Positions 37,045 to 59,963 of a DNA stretch of 64,000 nt are shown in pieces; positions within the stretch are counted from its first letter, which is position 1; each line of letters begins with the position of its first letter. The notes below the pieces were generated by a model. It was not told where the DNA came from. It searched no databases and worked only from the letters and a program-made list of their open reading frames with translations. The translations under genes and the position numbers were made by a program. This DNA comes from Capsulimonas corticalis (GTDB lineage Bacteria; Armatimonadota; Armatimonadia; Armatimonadales; Capsulimonadaceae): assembly GCF_003574315.2 (NCBI RefSeq), contig NZ_AP025739.1:3410001-3474000 (forward strand). The letters run 5' to 3'.

Positions 37045-38418
37045 TTAAAGCGAGTCCAGAAATGCTTTCAGGTCGGCCCGTTCGTTCGGGTTCAAATTCA
37101 TGTTGAACCGGCCGTTGTAAAAGTCCACCACGTCACGCGTGGATGCGGCGGAGCCGTTGTGGAAGTACGGAGCTCGCGCGGGGAGGCCGCGCAGGGTGGG
37201 GATTTTGAACTTACCGATGTCCGCCCATTTGCCGGTGACGAGCGCGCGTCCGGGATCGGTCGTCAGACGCACGGCGCCCGTGGATGAATTGCGCAGCGTG
37301 TAGAGCGGCATGTCGGACGTGCGCCGCGCGGCGTCCGTCAGTCCCAGGTCCATGAACGCCGCCGACGAGTGGTTTCCCACTTCGGGCGTGTTATGGCACC
37401 CCGAACAAGTCGTGCGCGCCAGCGAAAGATGGACGACATCGTTGAAGCCCGCGACCCCCGTCACTGCAATCGGACGCGTATTGAAGATGGCTTCTCCGCG
37501 AGCAATGGAGGCGCGCGCGCGTGACTGCGCATCGGGGGCGGTGATTCCCTGCCATCTGCCGAAGATCGTGAAGACATTGGGATTGAAACTCGCCGATGTG
37601 GGATCGTTTTCACCCAGCGTGAACGGGAGCGTGGTGAGGTAGCGCGGGCCGCCGTTGGCTCCGAAGGCGCCGAGCGGCCCCGCCGCGTTGTCGAGGGACT
37701 GCGCGGTGTAGAGGCCGCGCTCAAAGGTGACGAGCTGGTTGAGGACGGCGGCGCTCGGAGCCGCCGACGCCTGTTCGTGCGTCAAGACCGCCGTCGCGGC
37801 CTGATGGGCCAGATCGGCGGCGATATTCGTGCTGGAAATCGTCTCTCGCCCGTCCCACATCACCGTGCTGGTAAACGCAAGGTTTGTGGGAGGAAGCGGA
37901 CGCCGGAACAGGGAGAGCTGCGCGGGCGACGCAAAACCGTAAGGATCGTTCGCCGCCGTCAGCGTGAACTCGGCGCCCGACGGGACCGGCAGGCCGATCC
38001 GGATATCCCCGCGCGTCAGCAGCATGCTGTACGCGGCTTGCCTCGCGGCGACGGTGGACACGTTCGCGTTCGGCGAGTTCGCTCCATCCACCGTTCGGAA
38101 GATCGGGGCCAGGCCGTTCGTCTCTTGAAATCGCGCCTGGACGCTTGCGGGCGTGATGCTCCAGCCTTCCTCGGGATGATGGCAATTGTAGCATGTTCTT
38201 CCGTTGCTTCCCAGGCTGGTAAAGAATGGATGAGTTGCGAGGGCCGGCCCGGTGGCGCTGATCGTCGCCGATTGCCCGGTGGCGTCTGGGAATTCCGCTC
38301 CCGCCGGCGGCGGATTGGGAGGCGGGGGCGGGGGCGGCGTGGACGCCGCCTGCGCGAGTGTGGTGAACAGTCCGGCGGTGGATGCCGCCAATAACCAGGA
38401 AATCCGACGTTTCGCCAT
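37045..38418 (-). CDS. di-haem cytochrome c peroxidase / MauG-family protein
   Basis: 457 residues, ATG 38418 after AAGGAGA. Signal peptide (SWLLAASTAGLFTTLAQA) and a Pro-rich stretch (PPPPPPPNPPP) precede the enzyme. Two CxxCH haem motifs: CYNCHH near residue 77 and CSGCHN near 338, and FKIPTLRGLPARAPYFHNGS near residue 398 is the usual CCP/MauG signature. It should be periplasmic, reducing H2O2 or performing MauG-type oxidation. It diverges from a pseudopilin gene; promoter repeats lie at 38476-38504. Confidence 0.9.
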   Translation of the reverse strand: MAKRRISWLLAASTAGLFTTLAQAASTPPPPPPPNPPPAGAEFPDATGQSATISATGPALATHPFFTSLGSNGRTCYNCHHPEEGWSITPASVQARFQETNGLAPIFRTVDGANSPNANVSTVAARQAAYSMLLTRGDIRIGLPVPSGAEFTLTAANDPYGFASPAQLSLFRRPLPPTNLAFTSTVMWDGRETISSTNIAADLAHQAATAVLTHEQASAAPSAAVLNQLVTFERGLYTAQSLDNAAGPLGAFGANGGPRYLTTLPFTLGENDPTSASFNPNVFTIFGRWQGITAPDAQSRARASIARGEAIFNTRPIAVTGVAGFNDVVHLSLARTTCSGCHNTPEVGNHSSAAFMDLGLTDAARRTSDMPLYTLRNSSTGAVRLTTDPGRALVTGKWADIGKFKIPTLRGLPARAPYFHNGSAASTRDVVDFYNGRFNMNLNPNERADLKAFLDSL

Positions 38419-38459: not shown

Positions 38460-38504
38460 ATAGTAGCGTTCAATCATGAAGAGAACATGAAGAAACCATG
38501 AAGA
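38460..38504 (-). promoter_or_regulatory. three 11-bp-spaced direct repeats upstream of the peroxidase gene
   Basis: Minus-strand TCTTCAT occurs three times (positions 38504-38498, 38493-38487, 38482-38476), spaced exactly 11 bases, ending about 10 bases upstream of a possible -10 TACTAT (38465-38460). One helix turn per repeat is the layout of sites for OmpR/PhoB-type or SARP activators. The regulator is not identified. Confidence 0.55.
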
Positions 38505-54333: not shown

Positions 54334-55455
54334 ATGACCGACATCGCCTCCGTCCGAAGTCAAATACTAACCGCGTTTGCAGGAACATCGCCTCCGCCTG
54401 CGGATCGACTCGTGACGGAGCAAGGCAAACGCGATGCTCCTGGCGCAGAGCGGATCCATGCGATGCTCGCCGGTGAGCGCTGGGAAGAATTGTCGTTTGA
54501 TTTTCTTAAGGAGTGGTGGTCGTCATTTTGTTATTTGACGCCGGAAGCGACGCGTTATTATCTTCCAGCCCTTCTCATCACTGCTCTCGACCATTGGGGA
54601 GAGGAAGTAGACTTTTCCCATACCGTCGTTTACAGCCGACTTATGCCGAGTGCCTACGCTATTTACTATCACGGTTCTGATTCCCATTTCGAGGGACTAG
54701 CTGGCTTACTCACCAAAGAGCAATTTCGCGCGGTCGCCGCGTTTCTGGCATTGTTTCTGCCTCATTCGAATCCGGGCAATACGTTGCTGTTGCGCGGTGC
54801 GGAGCCATCACATATGATGTTCCTGGCGTCGCGCGCCATGCGGTTGTTTTGGGAACGGGCGGGTGGGCCGCATGCGGAGGCGTTTGCCGCATTCGATTGG
54901 CAGATGCGTCATTACGAATATCCGGCCCCTGAGGATCCTGCCGCCGCTGCCTTGGTCGAGGAAATTCGCTCGGCTTTTGCGGATGCTCCCTATCCGGGAG
55001 ACAATAATTTGAGCGGATCAAGGCAGGGGGATGAGGCTGCGGAAATTGCTCTGGATCTGCGTGGCGTCCATTGGCGGACGATCGCTCCGTGGCTACTGGC
55101 AGACAATAGCACTGCTACGTCATTTCTCACGCACGAAGGTCTACGCTATTATTTGCCGGCGTTCTTGATCGCCGATCTGATGGAGTTTGGCGGAGGGCGT
55201 TGCGTTTTTACACTGACGCATGGGTTTACAGAGTCAAATTTTAGTCTTTATCCTGATACCGATTGGTTTGCGTATGGCGTAGAAAGAATGGCGGGGTTTA
55301 CCTTGCCGGAGCGGCTGGCGATTATTCGCTATCTTGAATATACGGCTGAACAGGAAGACTATGAGGCGGCGAATATCCACGAAGCGCTGGAGAGATACTG
55401 GCGCCCGAGCCTTGGTAATAAAGGTGATGTGGAAGTGGCAGGGGATAAAACATGA
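54334..55455 (+). CDS. tandem DUF6714-like protein
   Basis: 373 residues. The chain repeats one unit: residues 1-150 with FCYLTPEATRYYLPALLITALDHWGEE, and about 205-365 with FLTHEGLRYYLPAFLIADLMEFGGG, each with a preceding region (VTEQGKRDAPGAE or LSGSRQGDEAAE). This is the DUF6714 plan, duplicated. No signal or catalytic motif. The last four bases overlap the start of the next gene, so both are co-expressed. Function unknown; it may modulate the BTAD regulator. Confidence 0.7.
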   Translation: MTDIASVRSQILTAFAGTSPPPADRLVTEQGKRDAPGAERIHAMLAGERWEELSFDFLKEWWSSFCYLTPEATRYYLPALLITALDHWGEEVDFSHTVVYSRLMPSAYAIYYHGSDSHFEGLAGLLTKEQFRAVAAFLALFLPHSNPGNTLLLRGAEPSHMMFLASRAMRLFWERAGGPHAEAFAAFDWQMRHYEYPAPEDPAAAALVEEIRSAFADAPYPGDNNLSGSRQGDEAAEIALDLRGVHWRTIAPWLLADNSTATSFLTHEGLRYYLPAFLIADLMEFGGGRCVFTLTHGFTESNFSLYPDTDWFAYGVERMAGFTLPERLAIIRYLEYTAEQEDYEAANIHEALERYWRPSLGNKGDVEVAGDKT

Positions 55456-58400
55456 CCGGCGCTTGGACGGTGACCTTGTTTGGCGGGCTTCGCGCGACGC
55501 GCGGGACGGAGGTGGTGGAGCGGTTCCGATCGCATAACATCGCGGCGCTGATGGCGTATCTCTGTTTGTTCCCACGCCTCCATTCGCGTGAGGAGCTTGC
55601 CGACCTGCTGTGGCCGGACTCTGATCTGGAGGCGGGCCGGACCAACCTGCGCACCGCCATCGCCTCGCTGCGCCGGCAGCTGGAGCTGCCGGGCGACCTC
55701 GCGGGGAGCATCTTGGTCACGCAGGGCCGCACGATGGTGGGACTCAATCCCGAAGCGATCTCGACCGATGTCGCCCACTTTGAAAGTTTACTGAAAGGCT
55801 CCGCGCATCCTGAGAATAGCATTGTCGAAAAGATCGCGATGCTTGCGGAAGCCACCGGATTATACGCGCAGCCGCTGCTTTCCGGGTTTTATGAGACGTG
55901 GGCGCTGACCGAACGGGACCGGCTGGCCGAGGTCCAATGGGGGGCGCTGCGCGATCAGGCCGGCCTTTATGAACGGACCGGGCGTTACGACATGGCGCTC
56001 GAATGCGTTCGGCGCGCGGTGTCCGCCGATTCGCTGCGCGAGGAAGCGCACGCCGAGGTCATTCGCCTGCTCATGGCCTCCGGACAGGTCGCCGCCGCGC
56101 GCCGGCAGTTCGCCGATCTAGAGCAGCTTTTGGAGAGTGAGCTGGGCATCGAGCCCACGCCGGAAACACGGGCGCTTTTGAACGCCGCGCCCGCGCCGGA
56201 AACACGGGCGCTATCGGACGCCTCGCCGGCCGAAGCGACTCTGGTCTTTGCGCCGCCACCCGCTTCCGCCGCCCCTTCGAACGCTGGAGACGGCCCTGTG
56301 ACCAAGCCGGTCCTGGTGCGGAAACCGTCCCGCCTTCCCCTGACGCTGACGCAGTTTTTCGGACGCTCCAAGGAGCGTGCGTCGCTCGCGGATCTGCTGG
56401 GCGAGGGCACGCGTCTGGTGACGCTGACCGGTCCCGGCGGCTCGGGCAAGACGCGGCTGGCGATCGAAGTCGCGCGGGACCTTCATGAAACGTTTCCTGG
56501 AGGATCCTGGTTTATCCCGCTGGCCGATGTGCGGGAGGCGAGCCGGATTTCCGACGCGCTTGCGGAAGCCCTTCCCGTCACCCGGTCCCGCGCCGTGATG
56601 CCGTTCGATCAGGTCGTCGAGGCGCTGACGCGCCTGGGGCGCGTCGTTCTGGTGCTGGATAACTTCGAACAGCTCGCGGAGACGGGGGCGAATGTCGTGC
56701 AGCAGCTTTTGAGCGCCGTGCCCGAGCTGTGCTGTCTGGTGACCTCCCGCCAGCGCCTGCTTCTGGACGGCGAACGCGAGTTTCCGCTGGCGCCGCTTCC
56801 CACACCGCCGACTCCCGGCTCCCCGGAGCGCCTGCTGGAGTTTCCCAGCATCCAGTTGTTCGTCAACCGGGCGCAGGCGGCGCGGCCGGATTTCCAGCTC
56901 TCCGCGCGCAACGCCGCCGCTGTCGCGCTGCTCTGCGACAAGCTGGAGGGGATCCCGCTGGCCGTGGAGCTGGCCGCCGCCTGGGCGCAGACCTTGAGCC
57001 CGGCGCAGACCCTGGAGCGACTGGACCATCGTTTCGATCTGCTGGTGTCCCGCCGCCGCGATACCCCGGGCCGCCATCAAACGCTGCGGGCGACGGTGGA
57101 ATCCAGTTATCAGCTTTTGCCCCCGGCGACCCAGCGTTTCTTCACGCAGCTCGGTCAGTTTCGCGGCGGGTGGACCCTGGAGGCGGCCGAGGCGGTCAGC
57201 GGCGACCGGGACGCCATCTACCATCTGACGACGCTGCGCGAGCACTCGCTCGTGCTCGCCTCGGAAGAGTCGCAGGTCGATGGAACCGCCGAAACCGGGA
57301 TGCGCTACCGGATGCTGGAGACGCTGCGCGAGTTCGCCGACGAGCTGGTGTCGGATGAGGACAAGCGCCGCGCGCTCTGCGAACGGCATTACGGGCACTA
57401 TTTGGAGCTGGCGCAGGACGCGGAGCCGGGCCTGCACGGGCACGAGCAGGCCGGCTGGATCAAGCGGCTCGATTCCGAGCGCCACAATATGCGCGGCGCG
57501 CTGGCGTGGGCGACGGAGTACGACCCGGACGCGGGGCTTCGGCTCGCCTCGGCGCTGACCCGGTTCTGGGAGTCGCGCGCCTATGTCCGCGAGGGCAGCC
57601 TTTGCATGGAGCAGCTATTGGCGGTGAGCGGCGGCGAGACGTCGCTGCGCGCGGATATCCTGTTCAAGTCGGGCCGCTTCGCCTGGTATCTGCGTAACTG
57701 GGACCTCGCTCGCAAGCGCTTCTCGGAAAGCATCACCATGTATCGCGCGCTGAACGACATTTCGGGGATCGCTCTGCCGCTCGCCGCCTGGGCCGGTCTG
57801 CTGCTGATGAACGACGGCGACGGCCTTGGCGCGCACATGGCGCTGGAGGAGGCGTGGCGCGCCACGGAGATCAGCGGAGATCTGCGGCCGCGTCTGGAGA
57901 TCTACGAGTGGCGCACCGCCATGGCCTGCGGGATGGAGAATTACGCGGAAGGGGAGCGCCATACACAGGATTGGCTGGCGCTGGCGCGCCAGCTTGGCGA
58001 TCACACCATTGAAGTCGCGGCCCTGTTCTGGATGGGATTGCTCACCGCGAACAGTATGGACTCCCAGCGCGCGCGCGTGTATTTCGAACAGGCGATCGCG
58101 GTCTCCAAAACCGTCGGCGAGACCTTCTGGGGCTCCGGAGCGTGGTTCGGCATGGCGCTGGTCGAAGTGATGGACGGGGACCCGGAGCGCGGGCGCCAGT
58201 GCGTGCAGCGCTCCTACGACCTTCTGGGCGATATGGGCTATCAGTTCGTACACCATTATCTGCTTCAAGCGCTGGCGTTTGTCTGTTCGGCGCAGGGGGA
58301 CGCGTCGCGCGCCGCGCGTCTGCTGGGCGCGGTGGAGCACCTTCGGCGGACCGACCAGACATTGACGGCGTCCATCATCGGCCGGGGCTTCGATACCTAT

Positions 58401-58508
58401 GTCGAGAGCGCCAAAGCCGCCCTTGGACCTGAGGGGTTCGCGGCGGAGCAAGCGATCGGCGCGGGAATGACGCTGGACGAGGCGCTGGCGTACGGCCTGC
58501 TGCCCTGA
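55452..58508 (+). CDS. SARP/AfsR-like regulator: BTAD + NTPase + TPR
   Basis: 1018 residues. Residues 1-100 form an OmpR-type winged helix (FRSHNIAALMAYLCLF, AGRTNLRTAIASLRRQL) and 100-250 the BTAD helical domain. A linker with a repeated PETRAL unit (237-260) leads to an AAA/NB-ARC ATPase with P-loop GPGGSGKT at 327-334 and VLVLDNFEQL as Walker B. The last 350 residues are TPR-type helical repeats. Such proteins bind direct-repeat DNA beside -10 boxes. The cupin promoter just downstream contains such repeats (58607-58636). Overlaps the upstream gene by four bases. Confidence 0.9.
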   Translation: MTGAWTVTLFGGLRATRGTEVVERFRSHNIAALMAYLCLFPRLHSREELADLLWPDSDLEAGRTNLRTAIASLRRQLELPGDLAGSILVTQGRTMVGLNPEAISTDVAHFESLLKGSAHPENSIVEKIAMLAEATGLYAQPLLSGFYETWALTERDRLAEVQWGALRDQAGLYERTGRYDMALECVRRAVSADSLREEAHAEVIRLLMASGQVAAARRQFADLEQLLESELGIEPTPETRALLNAAPAPETRALSDASPAEATLVFAPPPASAAPSNAGDGPVTKPVLVRKPSRLPLTLTQFFGRSKERASLADLLGEGTRLVTLTGPGGSGKTRLAIEVARDLHETFPGGSWFIPLADVREASRISDALAEALPVTRSRAVMPFDQVVEALTRLGRVVLVLDNFEQLAETGANVVQQLLSAVPELCCLVTSRQRLLLDGEREFPLAPLPTPPTPGSPERLLEFPSIQLFVNRAQAARPDFQLSARNAAAVALLCDKLEGIPLAVELAAAWAQTLSPAQTLERLDHRFDLLVSRRRDTPGRHQTLRATVESSYQLLPPATQRFFTQLGQFRGGWTLEAAEAVSGDRDAIYHLTTLREHSLVLASEESQVDGTAETGMRYRMLETLREFADELVSDEDKRRALCERHYGHYLELAQDAEPGLHGHEQAGWIKRLDSERHNMRGALAWATEYDPDAGLRLASALTRFWESRAYVREGSLCMEQLLAVSGGETSLRADILFKSGRFAWYLRNWDLARKRFSESITMYRALNDISGIALPLAAWAGLLLMNDGDGLGAHMALEEAWRATEISGDLRPRLEIYEWRTAMACGMENYAEGERHTQDWLALARQLGDHTIEVAALFWMGLLTANSMDSQRARVYFEQAIAVSKTVGETFWGSGAWFGMALVEVMDGDPERGRQCVQRSYDLLGDMGYQFVHHYLLQALAFVCSAQGDASRAARLLGAVEHLRRTDQTLTASIIGRGFDTYVESAKAALGPEGFAAEQAIGAGMTLDEALAYGLLP

Positions 58509-58560
58509 TTGCCGGAAGTTACCCTCAATTCCCACCCATCGGATCTCACGGCGCATTCCA

Positions 58561-58594
58561 AGCGGAAGAATTCAAAAATTCTTCCGCTTTTTTT
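58561..58594 (+). terminator. terminator after the SARP-like gene
   Basis: AGCGGAAGAATT (58561-58572), loop CAAA, AATTCTTCCGCT (58577-58588), then T-run to 58594. Twelve perfect pairs and eight T: a strong intrinsic terminator that isolates the cupin promoter downstream. Confidence 0.9.
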
Positions 58595-58606
58595 ACGTTT
58601 GACCGC

Positions 58607-58652
58607 TGTACACGGTTTTGTACACGCTGTGTACACGGCGCCCTTGTATGAT
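58607..58652 (+). promoter_or_regulatory. SARP-type direct repeats and -10 box of the cupin promoter
   Basis: TGTACAC occurs three times, at 58607, 58619 and 58630, that is 12 and 11 bases apart, and is followed ten bases after the last repeat by TATGAT (58647-58652). Heptamer direct repeats at 11-base spacing near -10 are the known binding pattern of SARP activators, and a SARP-like gene ends 100 bases upstream. There is no -35 box, as expected for an activator-dependent promoter. Confidence 0.7.
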
Positions 58653-58752
58653 GCATCTGTCAGCGGCTCGGAGCAAAGTTCGCGGCGCTCCCAAAGCCGC
58701 GATCCGCCGGAGAACGATCCTGGCGTAAAGATCAACAATAAGGACGTATCAC

Positions 58753-59268
58753 ATGAATAACATTGTCGACCATATGATTGAAACCGACACTTCGCTGGGC
58801 GCTTATCTTATCCCGGGCGGCATGGGGCAGTTCTTCGACTTTGGAGACCATCGGGGGCGTGTGAAGGTCAGCGCGCAGGCGACGGCCGGAGCGTTTCTTT
58901 TTTGTGAAGTGGAAGTCGATCGCGGCGGCGGCGTTCCTCCGCACATTCATAGCCGCGAAGATGAGACGTTTTATATCCTCGAAGGTCGGTTCGCGTTTCA
59001 GATCGGGAACGAAACCGTGATCGCCAACCCGGGCGACACCGTCTTCGCGCCGCGCCGCGTCGCGCACGCCTGGTATTGCGTGAGCGAAGGCGGCGGCCGC
59101 GCGACGCTGCTGATTACGCCGGGAGCGAACTTTGAAGAGTTTGCCGGAGCGCTCGCGGACCTGAACATCGTGCCGAAGAAGGCGATGATGGGAGAGGAAG
59201 CGTCGCAGTTTATCCGTCTGTCCGCGCGTTACGGAATCGAGATGCTGCCGCATCTCCTAGGAGATTAA
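58753..59268 (+). CDS. cupin-domain protein
   Basis: 171 residues from ATG 58753 with AAGGACG upstream. Motif 1 PPHIHSREDETFYILEG and motif 2 PGDTVFAPRRVAHAWY give the metal-binding His/Glu/His set of a single-domain RmlC-like cupin. No signal peptide. Activity (isomerase, dioxygenase, decarboxylase or simple binding) cannot be told. Its promoter carries SARP-type repeats, so it may be a target of the regulator upstream. A secreted protein gene follows after two bases. Confidence 0.85.
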   Translation: MNNIVDHMIETDTSLGAYLIPGGMGQFFDFGDHRGRVKVSAQATAGAFLFCEVEVDRGGGVPPHIHSREDETFYILEGRFAFQIGNETVIANPGDTVFAPRRVAHAWYCVSEGGGRATLLITPGANFEEFAGALADLNIVPKKAMMGEEASQFIRLSARYGIEMLPHLLGD

Positions 59269-59270
59269 TT

Positions 59271-59963
59271 ATGAGAAGAATGCATGCAGTGCTGCTTGTA
59301 TTACTGCTGGTCGGAGGTTTGACGCGTGACGTCCCTTTGACGTCGGCGCGCGCCGAAATGGCTCAGAGCGCGGACATGGCGCCGGCGCGAACGTCGCTGC
59401 TGGCCCAAATCCAGCTTCCGGACGGCGCGCGCCGCTCCACGGATCGAAACAACCAGGCCGCCTTCGAAGCCGCGCTTCGGAAGGCGTCGGAAACCAGCCG
59501 GTCAAAATCCGGCGCCGTCGAATCCAAATCCGACAAAGTTGAATCCCGGTTCAACAAGGTCGAAGTGCTGGCTTGGCCGGCGGATGCGACGCCCATGCAG
59601 GACCTGCCGTCGAAGCTAAAGGATGCCGGATATGCCTATTCCGCCCGCCCCTCGTACGACGCCGTTCCCGGCCGCATCACGCCGTTCATCGCCGCCCGCG
59701 CCGGTCAAAACGATACAATCCAGGGCATGTGGATCGAGACCGATACGAAAAACGTTCTCCTCGCCTGGGCTTCTTGCCGCTCGAACAGCGCGAGCGGTCA
59801 AGGCGAGCAGAACACATTCGAACTGCTCCCCGCCGAGCGCCCAGAAACGGACGGAGCGTTCCGCTCCGCATCCGGCGCCCGCCCCGCGAACATCTCCCCC
59901 GCGCCGGCCGCGCTAGGCGTGCGGGTACACTCCGCGACCGTGTCTCACGCGTCCGCGCATTGA
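59271..59963 (+). CDS. secreted alanine/serine-rich hypothetical protein
   Basis: 230 residues, ATG 59271 only two bases after the cupin stop, with GGAGATTAATT upstream, so co-expressed with it. Signal peptide (MHAVLLVLLLVGGLT). The middle (SRSKSGAVESKSDKVESRFNK) is low-complexity and polar; the rest has EVLAWPADATP and FIAARAGQND but no known domain. Ends at a strong hairpin (59970-60017). Function unknown, probably outside the membrane. Confidence 0.6.
   Translation: MRRMHAVLLVLLLVGGLTRDVPLTSARAEMAQSADMAPARTSLLAQIQLPDGARRSTDRNNQAAFEAALRKASETSRSKSGAVESKSDKVESRFNKVEVLAWPADATPMQDLPSKLKDAGYAYSARPSYDAVPGRITPFIAARAGQNDTIQGMWIETDTKNVLLAWASCRSNSASGQGEQNTFELLPAERPETDGAFRSASGARPANISPAPAALGVRVHSATVSHASAH

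Follow-up and report, generated by a model that had tools for sequence, protein, structure and literature searches.

The window analysed here is a 64,000-nucleotide stretch of the Capsulimonas corticalis genome (contig NZ_AP025739.1, positions 3,410,001 to 3,474,000), and the locus of interest within it consists of a large regulator gene containing a BTAD, its terminator, an array of three heptameric direct repeats with a −10 element, and two genes predicted to form an operon (Table 1). The start of the BTAD gene is overlapped by 4 bases by a gene encoding a DUF6714 protein, making co-transcription of the two probable, and a gene similar to the latter also precedes the orthologue in the other species of the genus (G001). 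The original prediction had placed the repeats behind a strong terminator and close downstream of the BTAD gene, and both hold: the terminator lies about 50 bases past the end of the gene, which itself ends 98 bases before the first repeat. A terminator-like stem followed by a T run likewise stands at the matching locus of G001. The secreted protein predicted as the second product of the operon has no Pfam match.

Table 1. Coordinates within the window of the features at the regulator locus.
Feature	Coordinates	Strand	Basis
DUF6714 protein gene	54334..55455	+	Pfam PF20461, 80.8 bits
Large SARP-like regulator, 1018 aa (winged helix, BTAD, NB-ARC/NACHT-type ATPase, TPR)	55452..58508	+	Pfam, AfsR match, model
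Recognition helix codons, residues 59-77, LEAGRTNLRTAIASLRRQL	55626..55682	+	Helix in model; ungapped AfsR alignment
Intrinsic terminator of regulator gene, 13 bp stem then T run	58560..58589	+	
Repeat 1 (distal), GTACACG	58608..58614	+	Sequence; kept in G001
Repeat 2, GTACACG, 12 bases past repeat 1	58620..58626	+	Sequence; kept in G001
Repeat 3, GTACACG, 11 bases past repeat 2, 9 before −10	58631..58637	+	Sequence; kept in G001
−10 element, TATGAT	58647..58652	+	Identical in G001; no −35 pair
Cupin gene, 171 aa, predicted target	58753..59268	+	Pfam Cupin_2, 57.5 bits
Predicted secreted protein, 230 aa, second gene of predicted operon	59271..59963	+	

The regulator combines a putative DNA-binding domain with a BTAD behind it (PF03704, 68.2 bits, residues 105-243) and a C-terminal part in which AAA_16, NACHT, NB-ARC and TPR_12 score above the Pfam cut-offs. 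An N-terminal OmpR-type winged-helix domain is identified by the structural model and Foldseek; Pfam Trans_reg_C is only weakly matched in this protein (20.6 bits versus a cut-off of 26.2) and is matched in 43 of 50 aligned family members (E up to 0.01). A PDB sequence search gave a full-domain match to AfsR only, and the SARP part (first 250 residues), modelled with a pLDDT of 96.5, had AfsR and EmbR as its best Foldseek matches (AfsR E 1.9e-12, TM 0.76-0.78). The score against the NCBIfam AfsR equivalog NF053617 (60.5 bits) falls below the cut-off of 1430, so the protein is a relative of AfsR and not AfsR itself. The alignment of the two proteins is ungapped over the recognition helix, where the counterparts of R67 and T68 in AfsR are R87 and T88. 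No receiver domain was found in the regulator by Pfam, which does not exclude the action of an unlinked PhoB/OmpR-type regulator.

The repeats had been described as three copies of TGTACAC at 12- and 11-base spacing; these are present on the positive strand (58607, 58619 and 58630), but the conserved unit is GTACACG, shifted by one base. Ten bases separate the end of the third TGTACAC copy (58636) from TATGAT, and no sigma-70 −35/−10 pair was found in a promoter search of this region, in agreement with the original prediction on both points. Counted from the GTACACG unit, the gap to the −10 element is nine bases (GCGCCCTTG), or 8 when an 8-base unit is assumed. TGTACAC occurs 6 times in the window against 1.54 expected, a number reached in 0 of 100 shuffles, one of the 6 matches being the palindromic shadow of the third copy. 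Shuffling the intergenic region 20,000 times never produced an exact 7-mer triplet at 11/12 steps, and a search of 464 kb of the genome gave just two besides the array at 58608. If transcription starts near 58659, as inferred here, the proximal copy would span roughly −28 to −22 and the middle copy roughly −39 to −33, near the −40 to −19 box of AfsR at afsS (PMC10936776). Large SARPs bind direct repeats spaced by 11 or 22 bp, the 3′ repeat being 8 bp from the −10 element (PMC10936776); the array fits this description, binding by the protein being inferred only.

The AfsR/EmbR-like fold, the SARP repeat geometry, conservation in the sister species and an enrichment found only beside BTAD genes, the last two described below, support the reading of the original prediction. 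It is therefore considered likely that the three GTACACG repeats and TATGAT form an activator-dependent promoter of the cupin and secreted-protein operon, the activator most likely being the adjacent SARP-like protein; binding and activation are inferred, as no binding or expression data are available.

Geometry alone is no proof of a SARP, since PhoB/OmpR-type activators use a similar one: OmpR/PhoB-type winged helices bind direct repeats at about 11 bp that replace the −35 element. The array could instead belong to a different regulator of the OmpR/PhoB type, such as a PhoB-like response regulator, with the adjacency of the BTAD gene a coincidence. This explanation is unlikely but is the best placed of the alternatives. 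In its favour, the genome also contains triplets without a BTAD neighbour (CTTCATG at 38475 and CTTAACAC in L230), and the GTACACG heptamer is similar to the GTTCACC units in PhoP boxes of Streptomyces. The Pho boxes of PhoB and PhoP share with this site the OmpR-type winged helix of their reader and the 11-bp direct repeats in place of −35, whereas the regulator in the window has a BTAD and NB-ARC and no receiver domain.

What speaks against an unrelated OmpR/PhoB-type regulator is the distribution of such promoters across Armatimonadota. The flanks of BTAD genes (400 bases upstream, 500 downstream, both strands) were scanned for two identical 7-mers followed nine bases on by a −10-like hexamer, degenerate arrays not being counted, with control genes drawn from 400 kb of stretches of the Capsulimonas corticalis genome. 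The first set comprised 72 genes, and examples from it had guided the choice of gap and steps. In this set 19 genes matched, 13 at step 11, 6 at step 12 and none at any step of 7-10 or 13-15, compared to 5 of 271 other genes of the genome (p = 3e-10); decoy steps were not enriched (p = 0.42), the gap profile peaked at 9, and block-shuffled flanks gave a mean of 0.29 matches. Predictions were recorded before the second set of 80 genes was obtained and the pipeline was left unchanged; 19 of these genes matched (14 at step 11, 5 at step 12; p = 1.6e-9), with lone genes at steps 10 and 22. Pooled, 38 of 152 Armatimonadota BTAD genes match. Perfect doublets with the nine-base gap are more than ten times commoner beside BTAD genes than beside controls in both gene sets, and they are absent beside genes for NB-ARC proteins without a SARP part (0 of 40). 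The heptamer, moreover, tracks the recognition helix of the adjoining regulator. Related genes make these counts non-independent; after clustering at 50% identity, 31 of 99 clusters match. A perfect doublet is missing from the flanks of three quarters of the BTAD genes, and among BTAD loci outside Armatimonadota the strict test was met by 2 of 32, both apparently from Chloroflexota.

Of the 38 promoters, 22 face the next gene downstream, 13 an upstream gene in divergent orientation and 3 the regulator's own gene; the genes behind them are mostly exported or pilin-like by eye, with some enzymes and transporters. All but one of the 11 matches at step 12 come from low-scoring (class II) BTADs. 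Two candidate arrays were discounted, the repeats after L058 overlapping a terminator stem and a 22-bp repeat at L048 lying within a terminator-like stem. There are 16 clear BTAD genes in the Capsulimonas corticalis genome alone. These comparisons, made on sequence only, suggest that SARP-like activators of Armatimonadota often own a private DNA word before a neighbouring gene.

The heptamer differs from regulator to regulator, and its sixth base follows residue 67, at the start of the recognition helix. Among the matches, regulators with R or K at this position have C or T as base 6 in 20 cases and A or G in 2, and those with S or N have C or T in none and A or G in 15, placing this pair first among 126 helix-by-base pairs (z 9.4, p = 1.5e-8; p = 1.4e-6 when clustered at 50% identity). 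Validation genes alone gave ratios of C/T to A/G of 10:2 for R/K and 0:7 for S/N. The rule was noted from the discovery set as heptamer endings before the second set, its base-6 form being fixed at testing, and the statistics are not fully independent of phylogeny. The window regulator, with R67 and GTACACG, fits it. How residue 67 would choose base 6 is unexplained, as AfsR R87 makes a backbone contact in the structure (PMC10936776). An apparent exception is found in another genome (G017), where a cupin gene with ACG repeats stands beside an S67 regulator, a pairing that the rule would not make; this regulator's own promoter has TGAGAGA repeats, and the cupin repeats are more likely to be read by an R67 relative of the window protein in that genome (L055, helix TNLRTA). 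On balance, a picture is favoured, with moderate confidence, in which Armatimonadota possess many parallel SARP-like activators, many with a private heptamer, that switch an adjacent, mostly exported or pilin-like gene, and in which specificity is set by a residue-to-base rule pairing R/K67 with heptamers ending in CG and S/N67 with those ending in GA or GG.

A BTAD regulator of G017 (G017:C74, L047:3090-6683) has an apparent nucleotide-cyclase domain behind the BTAD, and its own promoter carries TGAGAGA twice, then nine bases and TAGGAT. Its ATG lies 12 bases past the start of the −10 element, so the mRNA may be leaderless and autoregulated.

Conservation of the window array was assessed in G001, where the BTAD gene end is followed by the terminator, three GTACACG repeats (steps 12 and 11), the nine-base gap, TATGAT and a cupin gene 77% identical to that of the window, with a homologue 59% identical to the secreted protein behind it. 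All 21 repeat bases, all 6 bases of the −10 element, both steps and the gap are identical between the two species; matches fall to 13 of 18 in the array spacers, 13 of 20 in the 20 bases before and 26 of 40 in the 40 bases after. Repeats at 11/12 steps are also found upstream of cupin homologues of three other genera, with GTTCACG/GCTTACG/GCACACG in G017 (L047; steps 12, 11), TGTCACG/GTATACG/GTTTACG in L018 (steps 12, 11) and TGTTACG/TGTCACG/GTTCACG in L053 (steps 11, 11), all with a gap of 9. A cupin paralogue at 4.93 Mb of the same genome has GTTCACG three times (steps 11, 12), GTATACA 11 bases further, then nine bases and TAATAT. Across the cupin arrays, the inner positions and the palindrome vary, and the ACG ends, steps and gap are kept. 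In another genus, a close relative of the regulator (G014:C46, L186:2097-5026; 56% identity over residues 3-230, helix NNLRTA) is followed about 100 bases on by TGTCACG-12-GTACACG-11-GTTCACG, nine bases, TAAGAT and a secreted-protein gene. This regulator gene appears to be frameshifted in the assembly; its repeats and target gene are intact.

These comparisons bear on whether TGTACA, which is self-complementary, could be an operator to which a repressor dimer binds, for instance a TacA-type ribbon-helix-helix antitoxin. Elsewhere in the genome, a TGTACA-N5-TGTACA pair (L009:1480-1520, genome position 1325301) lies over the promoter of a DUF1778/GNAT-like toxin-antitoxin pair and is probably the antitoxin's operator. 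At the array, however, the palindrome is not kept, repeat 1 of G001 reading AGTACACG and the cupin paralogue GTTCACG, and other genera lack it while the direct unit, steps and nine-base gap persist; a dimeric repressor is thus very improbable, and the repeat unit is a direct GTNNACG and not the TGTACA palindrome. Slippage can create short repeats, but a functionless chance or decaying simple repeat is the least credible reading of all, given the shuffling result above, the change of spacers but not of repeat bases between the two species, and the equivalent arrays before homologous cupin genes in several genera.

For activation by the adjacent SARP-like protein, a mechanism can be proposed by analogy with AfsR. 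At afsS of Streptomyces coelicolor, AfsR recognises repeat units at 11-bp steps over the −35 region, the 3′ unit lying 8 bp before the −10 element (PDB 8hvr, 8k60, 8jke; PMC10936776). Protomers of the winged-helix/BTAD part would occupy adjacent repeats, each binding one, across the missing −35, where they would hold sigma region 4; the third repeat may admit a further protomer and so strengthen binding. The NB-ARC and TPR parts may restrain activity until ATP, together with an unidentified signal, lifts the restraint; this function of the ATPase is inferred. The window regulator shares with AfsR the winged-helix/BTAD fold and the order of ATPase and TPR parts, and its gap of 8 or 9 bases, depending on unit width, compares to 8 bp at the afs box. 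It differs in being only about 26% identical in the SARP part, in having three repeats with a distal step of 12 bp, in S72 at the position of the base-reading R92 of AfsR (PMC10936776), and in its predicted targets, a cupin and a secreted protein instead of AfsS, in the phylum Armatimonadota. Three heptameric direct repeats, usually over the −35 region, are also typical of the small SARPs DnrI and ActII-ORF4 and the SARP-LAL PimR, the PimR heptamers having 4-base spacers and hence 11-bp steps (PMC10972967). Those regulators belong to actinomycete antibiotic clusters. The heptamer here is GTACACG, with one 5-base spacer.

A 2024 review describes SARPs as exclusive to actinobacteria and presents their role as the control of secondary metabolism (PMC10972967). 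The present genome, from Armatimonadota, does not conform to that distribution, and places the architecture outside Actinobacteria as predicted. Nothing relevant on BTAD/SARP promoters outside actinobacteria was found in the literature, most subscription journals not being covered. The SARP fold and promoter geometry are thus found jointly in a different phylum, in numerous copies whose DNA words differ, apparently for exported proteins. With regulator and operator adjoining, each genome supplies natural protein-DNA pairs, making the sequence choice of SARPs testable by single-residue swap and the Armatimonadota regulators a set of candidate orthogonal activators.

The proposal of a SARP-type site would have been undermined had its repeats proved frequent in the genome and unrelated to SARP genes, but the search did not bear this out. 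A scan of 7.6 Mb for the doublet GTWCACG-N4/5-GTWCACG gave 4 loci, against none for the reversed pattern used as control. Besides the window site, these are the cupin paralogue (4.93 Mb), a gene for a secreted protein (2.13 Mb) and one intragenic site. The G001 orthologue of the 2.13 Mb site has the full triplet GTTCACG/GTACACG/GTACACG (steps 12, 11), nine bases and TAAAAC. The same regulator probably also drives the second cupin gene and the 2.13 Mb secreted-protein gene, this target set being inferred. The intragenic site, a GTTCACG pair at 1410139, was rejected as a chance match. Exact TGTACAC pairs are found at two other places in the genome, of which L009 was set aside as a target in favour of the probable TacA-type operator described above and L010 is plausible as a second target.

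Several further arrays were observed. The exact CTTCATG triplet of the window (38475-38504, negative strand; 11-bp steps, nine bases, TACTAT), with no BTAD gene adjacent, lies upstream of a di-haem cytochrome-c-peroxidase-like gene (37045-38418), and a CTTCATG doublet with a nine-base gap has one further occurrence in the genome (2819236). The CTTAACAC triplet (L230:13167-13196; 11-bp steps), upstream of TATAAT, resembles a Pho box. Four class II (FGPM-type) BTAD genes of the Capsulimonas corticalis genome (L054, L083, L090 and L091) have an apparent common upstream divergent motif like CGGAACGATTTTCCTCC / CGGAACGATTTTCCTCCTGAACGGAC. In the orthologous loci L082 and L178 of the two species of the genus, a small ORF is preceded by a TCACG triplet with 11-bp steps, which lies on the strand opposite to the BTAD gene and is convergent with it; the triplet is conserved between both species.
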